This document shows, piece after piece, positions 1 through 4,246 of a stretch of 28,532 bases of DNA. How positions within the stretch are numbered: position 1 is the stretch's first letter; each line of letters opens with the position of its first letter. The notes beneath the pieces are model-generated. The model was given only the letters and a program-made list of their open reading frames with translations, ran no database searches and had not been told where the DNA came from. The stretch lies in IMG/VR virus record IMGVR_UViG_3300032722_000093, positions 1-28,532 of that record; one strand, given 5' to 3'. Source of the DNA: a virus. The translations under genes were made by a program, and so were the position numbers.

Positions 1-153
1 CCGGCACCGCGCCGTCCATGGATTTAAGTGTAATACAAAATAAATCGCGTTGCAAGTGTTATTTTGTAACACAGAAAAATAAATTAACCCATAGGTTAAC
101 AAGCCCTCGCAGGTTTGCGATTCTGTGCAAGTCGGCCACTCTGGCAAACTGAT

Positions 154-186
154 GCCCTCATCCCTCGCGGGGTGGGGGCCTTTTTT
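154..186 (+). terminator. Strong rho-independent terminator left of the att core
   Basis: An 11-bp stem (154-164 with 169-179, two G-U pairs) closes a UCGC tetraloop and is followed by C and six T. It acts on rightward transcripts. Left of the integrase, it would suit the end of the late operon in circular phage DNA. Confidence 0.8.
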
Positions 187-198
187 GCGTTTCTGGGC

Positions 199-219
199 CT
201 GTGTAATTTCCGGTGTAAT
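199..219 (+). repeat. Left integrase arm-type repeat (putative)
   Basis: The segment reads CCTGTGTAATTTCC followed by GGTGTAAT and is nearly identical to 384-406 on the other side of the tRNA-like core. Each copy holds two GTGTAAT heptamers 12 or 13 bp apart; a fifth heptamer lies at 28-34. Direct repeats flanking a core are the usual form of arm-binding sites for tyrosine integrases. The role is inferred. Confidence 0.55.
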
Positions 220-300
220 CCGATGGCTATTTCGGCGTTTTCCTGGCACTCAGCGCTGCCGCTCCCCAGTGGGAGACTCTGCCTGAATGGCCGTTACACG

Positions 301-347
301 CATTCACACTGCAGGGGTCGCAAGTTCGAGACTTGCATCGCCCACCA
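301..347 (+). other. Attachment-site core: 3' fragment of a Val-type tRNA gene
   Basis: The 47 bases match the 3' part of a tRNA. There is an anticodon loop TTCACAC (anticodon CAC, Val), a T-stem GCAAG/CTTGC around loop TTCGAGA (320-336), an acceptor strand ATCGCCC and a terminal ACCA. The upstream sequence does not form a D-arm or a matching 5' acceptor strand, so this is a fragment and not a working tRNA gene. Tyrosine integrases of temperate phages commonly recombine within tRNA 3' ends, and the integrase gene lies 59 bp to the right. Confidence 0.8.
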
Positions 348-383
348 ATGAAAACACAGGCTGACGGTTGAATGAAATCCAGC

Positions 384-406
384 CCTGTGTAATTTCCCGG
401 TGTAAT
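384..406 (+). repeat. Right integrase arm-type repeat (putative)
   Basis: This is the second copy of the arm repeat, with one extra C relative to 199-219. It abuts the integrase stop codon. Immediately after it, AAGCCCTCGCAG (408-419) repeats 101-112 exactly. The matched arms on both sides of the core are the main reason to read the region as attP. Confidence 0.55.
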
Positions 407-1446
407 TAAGCCCTCGCAGCCTTCTTGGCAGCCGGGGCTTTTTTCTTGGCCGGAGGCATCACCAAGTCCCCCAATTTCCCCAGAGCTAGCCGCTGCGCAT
501 CCACCTGCAGATGGCTGTATCGCTGCGTGGTCTGGATGGTGCTATGCCCAAGAATCTTGCTGATGGTGTACAGGTCGACACCCAGGCCCAGCATGATCGA
601 TGCGCAGGAATGGCGCAGATCATGGAAGTTCACATGCCTCATGCCCGCGCGGACCCTGGCGCGCTGCCAGTTCGATTTGAAGCCCTCCACCGTCAGCGTG
701 AGCGGGAAGTGCTTGAGCCACGGCCGCAGGGCCGGGATGATGGGAACCACGCGGCTCGTGTTGGTCTTGGTGTGGCTGGCCGGGATCAGGATCGAGTCTG
801 GACCGATGTTTTCGGCCTTGATCTTGAACAACTCCCCGCGCCGGGCGCCGGTCAACAGTGCCGCCCAGATTGCGGCCTGCGTATCCGGCGTGCATCCATT
901 GGCGATCTGATGCACCTGGTCAACATTCAAAAACACCTCGCGCTTGTTGTTGACGCTCACAGACTTGATGCGCAGACCGTAATTTTCAGGCGTCAGGTCG
1001 CTTTCCCATGCCAGCGTCAAGCCCTTCTTGGCCGTGGCCAGGCTGCGGTTGATCGTGGCCGATGCGTAGGCCTGGCGCAACTCGCCAGTCTTTGGGTCGG
1101 CAATCTTGGTGCTCATGTCTTTGATGACGTGCGCAGCAAAGGCGGCAGCCTGGCTGGCCTTGTACTTGGCCGCCCAAGGCCCCAGGCGCTTCGCATGGTG
1201 CTCAGAGGTCTCTGCACTGCGCAGGCTCTTGGAATGCTCCACGTAGAGCGCCATGATGGACGCCATGGGCGGGTCGCCGGGGATATTTGCCTGCCTTGGC
1301 ATCTTCTCGATTGCCCCACGAATCTCAGCCTCTATGCGCTTGGCATCACCCGAAGTTGCACCTTCCGGCAGGATTCGGTGAACTCTTTTGCCGCCGACCA
1401 TAACCCCGACGTGCTTACGTCCCTGTTTATCTTCCCAGATTGACAT
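406..1446 (-). CDS. int: Tyrosine site-specific integrase
   Basis: Phage integrase of the lambda/tyrosine recombinase family, 346 aa from the chosen ATG. It catalyses attP x attB recombination through a covalent 3'-phosphotyrosine intermediate. The catalytic set is complete: Arg202 in TGARRGEL, Lys227 in HTKTN, His275 and Arg278 in HDLRH, His301 in LGHS, and Tyr310 in QRYSHL. The N-terminal part carries the arm-binding and core-binding regions, and the C-terminus is a Lys/Ala-rich tail. The frame is open up to 1620, but that extension is the shadow of the upstream HTH gene, so I place the start at MSIWEDKQGRKH. The gene ends at the att core, the classic position for int. It is the last gene of the leftward operon. 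Confidence 0.95.
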   Translation of the reverse strand: MSIWEDKQGRKHVGVMVGGKRVHRILPEGATSGDAKRIEAEIRGAIEKMPRQANIPGDPPMASIMALYVEHSKSLRSAETSEHHAKRLGPWAAKYKASQAAAFAAHVIKDMSTKIADPKTGELRQAYASATINRSLATAKKGLTLAWESDLTPENYGLRIKSVSVNNKREVFLNVDQVHQIANGCTPDTQAAIWAALLTGARRGELFKIKAENIGPDSILIPASHTKTNTSRVVPIIPALRPWLKHFPLTLTVEGFKSNWQRARVRAGMRHVNFHDLRHSCASIMLGLGVDLYTISKILGHSTIQTTQRYSHLQVDAQRLALGKLGDLVMPPAKKKAPAAKKAARA

Positions 1447-1604
1447 TGGTTTTCCTTCAGCCACGTCTTGCACTCGGCCAAGTCGTAGCGTTTTGCCCTG
1501 ATGCCTACGGGCGTGAATGGGAGGCCGTTGATTTCCATGCGGCGCACGGTCGATTCGCTGATGCCAAGGGCAGAGCAGAGCTGCTGGCGGTTCAATTCGC
1601 TCAT
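1332..1604 (-). CDS. Excisionase/AlpA-like small HTH protein
   Basis: The first 53 residues form a compact MerR/AlpA/Xis-type winged helix: MSELNRQQLCSALGISESTV, then RRMEINGLPF and a pattern ending in YDLAECKTWL. Such proteins bend DNA at att sites or act as excisionase. The frame runs on for 37 residues inside int, which begins at 1446; that tail may be an unstructured overlap. Its start overlaps the stop of the preceding gene (ATGA, 1601-1604). The position just before int supports a directionality factor, but no specific family name can be assigned from sequence alone. Confidence 0.75.
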   Translation of the reverse strand: MSELNRQQLCSALGISESTVRRMEINGLPFTPVGIRAKRYDLAECKTWLKENQCQSGKINRDVSTSGLWSAAKEFTESCRKVQLRVMPSA

Positions 1605-1798
1605 ACCGGCGTCCCTTCATAGTCCCGCTCGAAGCAAGCTCTGATCTCTGCGGGGTCGGTCATAACATCGCGGCGATGCTCGAAGTAATAAGCATCCCTG
1701 AACCCCGCCTTGTAAGCATCCATCACCTGCGCCGCCGAGTAGCATTCCACATCTTCGGCGGCGTCGTACAAGTCCGGCTGCGGTAGTGTGTAGGTCAT
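1601..1798 (-). CDS. Small hypothetical phage protein
   Basis: 65 aa, acidic, rich in Asp, Glu and Tyr (LYDAAEDVECYSAAQVMDAY). There is no signal peptide or membrane segment and no domain I recognise. It is accepted as real because it overlaps both neighbours by the four-base ATGA junction used throughout this operon. It may belong to the loose group of short phage ORFs whose ends carry a (Y/F)-x-AAQV-x-AY motif. Function unknown. Confidence 0.6.
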   Translation of the reverse strand: MTYTLPQPDLYDAAEDVECYSAAQVMDAYKAGFRDAYYFEHRRDVMTDPAEIRACFERDYEGTPV

Positions 1799-3401: not shown

Positions 3402-4246
3402 AGCGAATACAAGTCCTTTTCAGGGGCATCGCCATCAAGCCGAACGCGCAGTGTTTTTATTTTTTCGTTTTTGCAAAATTGCTTGAATGCCTTAAACATC
3501 AGGGCGGCTTTGTACGACTTTTTCAAGCTGCCAGTTGATCCTTTTGACTCCATTAGGCGGTCACGCAATAGGAGAATTGGAGATCCTGAATGCAAGCCAA
3601 TCCCAGACTCAATAGCGTCAAAAAATTGGATTGAATCATCTTTATTTTTCGCAGTGAAAACAAAGTGGCACATCACCGCCGTGCTTGGCTCAATGTTTTT
3701 TTTGATCCACTTTGATGCAGAGATATGGCTCACGGAATCTTTCAGCAGCGGATTTTTTAAGATGAATTCCTCTATTTGTGAAACCGTTGGCTGGATTGAC
3801 AGTACGGAACTGAAAGGATTCCCGGTAACAAACCGAAGATAGGAAATCCTGGCGGATGAAGCGAGAAGCGTGTAATGTTTTTCTCCGGAAATGGCAAGAA
3901 TGTCCGAAGTCGTGCGAGCCGCTCCGCCAGTGTCGATGGTGTGAAATACATCGTCGTCCAGATTGAATACGACAAGGGTTTGAACTGTGACGCCGCTTTC
4001 CTTTATCGCAGTCAGCCTGTGCTGTCCGTCAAGTAAAACGCCGCGCTTTGAAATCCGTATGGTGTCGCCATTTATCTCCCATTCCCCGCGCTTGATGGCT
4101 TCCGCCAGCTTTGAAGCCCTTCTGCTATTTAGCGGCCTATTGGCGGTGTTTTTCGCCAGCATGTCGGATGCGATATGTGGGCTTATAGCCATCAAGACTG
4201 TGGAAATCATTTGTTTTGTATCCTTTGTGTCGGTTCTATCGCTCAT
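3398..4246 (-). CDS. DGQHR (ParB/sulfiredoxin-like fold) phage protein
   Basis: 282 aa. Residues about 35-110 show the order NRPLNSRRASKLAEAIKRGE, NGDTIRISKRG, LLDGQHRLTAI and DDDVFHTIDTGGAARTTSDI. This matches a known uncharacterised family of phage and bacterial proteins with a DGQHR motif, related to the ParB/Srx fold. Members of that superfamily bind nucleotides or DNA; the reaction here is unknown. The rest (120-282) is helical and Lys/Ser-rich. Base composition is clearly more AT-rich than the flanking genes, with many TTT, AAA and ATT codons, which suggests recent acquisition. It overlaps both neighbours by ATGA. Confidence 0.7.
   Translation of the reverse strand: MSDRTDTKDTKQMISTVLMAISPHIASDMLAKNTANRPLNSRRASKLAEAIKRGEWEINGDTIRISKRGVLLDGQHRLTAIKESGVTVQTLVVFNLDDDVFHTIDTGGAARTTSDILAISGEKHYTLLASSARISYLRFVTGNPFSSVLSIQPTVSQIEEFILKNPLLKDSVSHISASKWIKKNIEPSTAVMCHFVFTAKNKDDSIQFFDAIESGIGLHSGSPILLLRDRLMESKGSTGSLKKSYKAALMFKAFKQFCKNEKIKTLRVRLDGDAPEKDLYSL

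Follow-up and report, generated by a model that had tools for sequence, protein, structure and literature searches.

The left end of an uncultured virus record raises the question of whether it holds an intact phage attachment site (attP), a junction between a prophage and its host, or repeats of another function that lie beside an integrase gene. The record (IMGVR_UViG_3300032722_000093) was analysed as a single stretch of 28,532 bases, referred to here as the window. A sequence-only reading of this DNA had placed an intact attP within positions 1–420, built on the 3′ end of a tRNA-Val gene and flanked by matched integrase arms.

The gene adjoining the site encodes a tyrosine integrase of 346 amino acids, starting MSIWEDKQ, which lies on the minus strand (406–1446) and reads toward the site. 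The longest open reading frame in this frame extends to 1620. The protein matches phrog_1 (E 2.1e-40) and PF00589 (E 9.7e-22), its N-terminal part has no Pfam match, and its relatives share 69–75% identity with it. An eight-row alignment of these integrases conserves R, K, H, R, H and Y, which we take to be the catalytic residues. Overlapping the start of the gene is a 90-aa open reading frame (1332–1604, minus strand) that has no Pfam match, resembles a small helix-turn-helix protein by eye and is possibly an excisionase. The ten window proteins that were scanned include the integrase, a RecE-like protein, a helicase, a methyltransferase, a terminase, a portal-like protein, a protease and a major head protein; one was unmatched, and no tail protein was found among the ten.

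The common core of the site occupies positions 300–347 on the plus strand and corresponds to the 3′ 48 nt of tRNA-Val(CAC), running from GCATTCACACTGC to CCACCA. Its identity as a tRNA-Val 3′ end had been recognized from the letters, but its length had been given as 47 bp. To its left is the P arm (198–219, plus strand), in which two direct GTGTAAT units (201–207 and 213–219) are 12 bp apart, and to its right is the P′ arm (384–406, plus strand) with two further direct units (387–393 and 400–406). Arm-type sites therefore flank the core on both sides, and the whole arrangement, 198–406, sits beside an integrase of the lambda type. ARAGORN called no tRNA in the 28.5-kb window, consistent with the absence of a tRNA 5′ half to the left of the core. 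A scan of the window located GTGTAAT on the plus strand at 28, 201, 213, 387 and 400; outside 1–420 there are two copies in the record, at 3870 (plus) and 22519 (minus). Five or more copies of this unit within 1–420 did not arise in any of 2000 dinucleotide shuffles and are far beyond chance. Any 7-mer occurring five times was seen in a single shuffle of the 2000, and a 14-mer repeat in none. General searches were uninformative: blastn of window positions 1–1700 against phages returned no match, all Rfam matches fell far below the gathering scores of their families, and the exact core was absent from all viral contigs searched.

Relatives were gathered by integrase searches and by a pattern for a P arm plus core, which yielded 32 viral contigs. 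Twenty-two carry a core derived from the 3′ half of the tRNA, six have a short core, and four (L061, L071, L073 and L082) seem to be unrelated. The host target was sought in 399 genomes of the same family. None contains the exact 48-mer, so the identical end looked for in a host tRNA-Val(CAC) was not found among them; 276 match at E ≤ 0.001 once mismatches are allowed. At 11 of the 25 host loci that were fetched, the only difference from the core is one base in the T loop, at window position 330, and ARAGORN identifies each of these 11 as tRNA-Val(CAC). Over its 48 bases, the core corresponds to the 3′ end of a host tRNA gene with one mismatch.

Rebuilding of the tRNA was examined in silico by joining four different host 5′ halves, drawn from 28 loci, to the window core and to that of each of the 32 contigs; two host halves with identical first seven bases are merged in the results. 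A host 5′ half followed by the window core is called as tRNA-Val(CAC) by ARAGORN. No tRNA is called in the window alone or when the P arm of the window is joined to a host 3′ half. The same tRNA was rebuilt with the 22 contigs that have a 3′-half core, and with none of the other 10. The host of the phage is probably a member of the Burkholderiales.

The order P arm, 3′-half core, P′ arm is found in 13 of the 32 viral contigs. Among the 22 with a 3′-half core, these 13 carry GTGTAA to the right of the core at the P′ distance, with at least two units in 11 and one unit in L069 and L086. The remaining nine were not counted as attP; some are cut by the contig end and others enter different flanking sequence. 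One contig, L072, was considered as an attR and then dropped: on its right side it is similar to the flank of L010, which makes a truncated attP with a 3′-half core the probable reading. The integrase follows the P′ arm in the relatives as it does in the window. In four others (L066, L074, L078 and L087), the integrase gene flanks the core on the side of the P arm; this integrase family thus varies in its gene order around the site.

The closest comparison is offered by L075, which aligns with window positions 190–405 at 85.6% through the P arm, the core and the P′ arm. The region left of its P arm encodes tail proteins (a tape measure protein, minor tail proteins and one that is J-like) as well as lysis proteins (an endolysin and an Rz-like spanin). 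This indicates that the left arm belongs to the far end of the phage. The left part of the window has also to be weighed as host DNA, with the contig ending in a single prophage junction. Window positions 73–189 have no informative match and no overlap exists between the ends of the contig, both of which would suit such a junction. It is nonetheless extremely unlikely: L075 and other relatives have the P arm as phage sequence, the tRNA 5′ half that stands to the left of the core in a true attL is lacking in the window, and positions 1–72 resemble the edge of an integrated element.

The integrated state itself can be seen in bacterial genomes. In loci from Limnohabitans (L010) and Curvibacter (L011 and L012), a complete tRNA-Val(CAC) is followed by P′ units and then the integrase gene, with the GTGTAA units of these attL sites positioned like those of the P′ arm in the window. 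The gene to the left of the tRNA in integrated relatives was identified by eye as DnaQ, and its equivalent in genome G390 has the exonuclease domain PF00929. The opposite junction, attR, was located on contig C13 of G003, the genome of L012. It consists of a P arm and the same 48-bp core, followed by a terminator-like stretch that gives way to different sequence; no complete tRNA is present at this junction. These separate junctions bear out the argument that a single junction would not have phage arms on both sides. The window contains neither an attL nor an attR junction, and both phage arms are present with phage DNA on both sides.

It could also be proposed that the GTGTAAT repeats are regulatory sites, such as a repressor operator, and that only the core is part of an attachment site. 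The unit at position 28 does sit in a probable promoter region, and the binding of the arms is predicted from their letters. The pair on the P side, however, keeps nearly fixed distances from the core across the relatives, about 99 and 87 bases before it, and the P′ units stay with the integrase in integrated copies. A regulatory role in place of arm sites is thus considered very unlikely.

The first 190 bases are less readily interpreted. A rightward terminator-like hairpin with a T run (154–187, plus strand; hairpin 154–179) lies to the left of the P arm, where a terminator had been noted by the sequence-only reading. In L060 and L057, inspection by eye likewise shows a T run after a hairpin-like stretch to the left of their P arms. 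Positions 1–72 have 81% identity to G080:C1:2786557-2786628, the sole related stretch found. This stretch lies at the border of an integrated element whose genes include ParB, VapE-like and repressor-like ones, and it was read by eye as adjoining the start of a rimO-like gene. From this similarity, 1–72 is taken as a putative AT-rich region upstream of a probable leftward gene (minus strand) at the far end of the phage. The GTGTAAT at 28–34 had been counted as a fifth unit of the site. The sequence is there, but it is not kept in the related stretch of G080; it was dropped as an arm site and, judged by this comparison, probably is not one. An imperfect inverted repeat in an AT-rich stretch spans window positions 22–80 (22-nt arms, 77%) and is perhaps an operator of the leftward gene beyond base 1.

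Positions 73–189 matched nothing informative, and two other genomes gave weak matches within 159–198. The 12-mer AAGCCCTCGCAG does occur twice, at 101–112 and at 408–419, where the second copy coincides with the end of the integrase gene. Such a repeat arises in 7 of 2000 dinucleotide shuffles, and a longer stretch around the copy at 101 has no exact match in the viral contigs. The repeat is real, but it was set aside as a functional part of the site.

The left-end sequence of the window, with only about 200 bases present to the left of the P arm, yielded no host gene. The suggestion that the far end of the contig might join base 1 did not hold, as no direct word of 11 bases or longer is common to the two terminal 500-base stretches; the longest word they share is of 11 bases and inverted. 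Since the ends do not overlap, the record is not closed, and free phage, a circular form and tandem copies are indistinguishable with this record.

Tandem copies deserve separate consideration. Two related prophages inserted one after the other at a single tRNA-Val gene would create a joint with the left arm contributed by the far end of one prophage and the right arm, together with the integrase, by its neighbour, an order identical to that of attP. Among the relatives, the P arms vary and the P′ side can be nearly identical, as between the window and L075, which would fit a joint of this kind. L075, however, matches the P arm, core and P′ arm as one unit, and the same order in 13 of 32 viral contigs is more simply explained by free phage. 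Two prophages in tandem are therefore regarded as unlikely.

The preferred reading, to which a probability of roughly 0.93 is assigned, is that the window holds an intact attP from a temperate tailed phage whose host is probably one of the Burkholderiales, in a contig fragment that runs through the attP joint. The arms, the core, the integrase, the homologous attP, attL and attR states and the in silico rebuilding of the tRNA are established at the level of sequence. From these, we infer the crossover position, protein binding and activity of the site. By analogy with lambda-type systems and with anticodon-loop sites (PMC4383910, PMC10865867), the integrase would bind the paired arm sites on both sides and bridge arms and core. 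Strand exchange would take place in the anticodon loop of the host tRNA-Val(CAC) gene, with TTCACAC (303–309) as the likely 7-bp crossover region. Insertion would restore a functional tRNA at attL, the integrase end, because its 3′ 48 nt are supplied by the phage, and the original 3′ half of the host gene would be displaced to the far end (attR). Given that the contig crosses the attP joint, the DNA would have come from an un-integrated form, circular or concatemeric, or from two copies in tandem.

The arrangement in the window is an ordinary one and adds another member to a known kind of tRNA site. The Islander survey lists 2083 anticodon-centred islands and 3760 of the 3′-fragment type (PMC4383910). 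Its class A anticodon-loop sites likewise have a 3′ tRNA fragment in attP, an anticodon-centred core and a restored tRNA. There is no essential difference from the window, whose target is the tRNA-Val(CAC) of Burkholderiales. The attP of the mycobacteriophages Boilgate and Omega (PMC10865867) has a common core of 43–44 bp; this long 3′-half core rebuilds the tRNA at attL as in the window, and putative arm-type sites surround the Boilgate core. These phages differ in their targets, tRNA Lys and Leu, and in their Mycobacterium hosts, and they are likened to the window by site layout and not by integrase. The same paper describes tRNA-dependent lysogeny, exemplified by Fionnbharth and Gaia, in which a short core is accompanied by a complete tRNA of the same isotype. 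The window differs from this in that its core rebuilds the tRNA, and no complete cognate tRNA is present in its 28.5 kb, which are part of a genome.

The relatives are more interesting than the window itself. Six of them (L057, L058, which equals L003, L063, L067, L087 and L089) keep both arms, and their core fails to rebuild a tRNA with any host half tried. In all six, the P′ arm is directly followed by a complete tRNA-Val, at most 330 bases from the core. No complete tRNA-Val was found near the core in the 22 contigs with a 3′-half core, an absence that is uninformative in several with less than 330 bases of sequence (for example 48 in L079, 66 in L072 and 99 in L070). A similar order with a related core sequence occurs in L056, L059 and the genome locus L030. 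On sequence anatomy, the six fit tRNA-dependent lysogeny as described for Fionnbharth and Gaia, from which they differ by having the spare tRNA directly beside the P′ arm.

An integrated case is available in G390 (G390:C2:106971-108140, locus L028), where the host tRNA-Val(CAC) is split beside a short core. The element's own tRNA-Val(CAC) is the only copy found in this possibly incomplete genome by similarity search. The displaced 3′ half of the tRNA was not found in G390, and neither was the far junction of the element. The element carries conjugation-type genes (PF12696, PF00437 and a weak TraI_2) and so resembles an integrative element more than it does a plain phage.

To place the two kinds of site on an integrase tree, 29 of 35 integrases were labelled by site state, and L005, L007, L008, L109, L122 and L123, whose sites are cut off or unclear, were left out. 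The tree requires seven changes of state, at least six of which are forced by well supported branches. Clustering of the state label does not exceed that seen in shuffles (as low in 84 and 89 of 500), and support near the window is low. For these reasons, the tree shows repeated switching and not its direction. It appears quite probable that the window represents one state of a Burkholderiales phage and element module that has repeatedly switched between rebuilding tRNA-Val with a 3′-half core and destroying the target, in which case the core has 13 or slightly more bases and a complete replacement tRNA-Val is set beside P′.

tRNA-dependent lysogeny itself is not new. It has been described for actinobacteriophages, with Lj965 of Lactobacillus named as a possible earlier case, and its wider prevalence is left open by its authors (PMC10865867). 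A 2024 study of Sinorhizobium mentions a similar replacement of host tRNA genes, and a 2025 study reports that it is absent in phiLM21-like prophages. Among the papers listed by a limited literature search, there was no report of tRNA-dependent lysogeny for the integrase family of the window.

For the window, the site fixes tRNA-Val(CAC) as the integration target, which indicates a likely host group for an uncultured phage, and it shows that the assembly passed through the attP joint. The integrase family has both states among close relatives and in another host group. If the proposed switching is true, close pairs such as L010 versus L028 or L057 would make it possible to test, outside the Actinobacteria, whether canonical integration gave way to tRNA-dependent lysogeny or the reverse.
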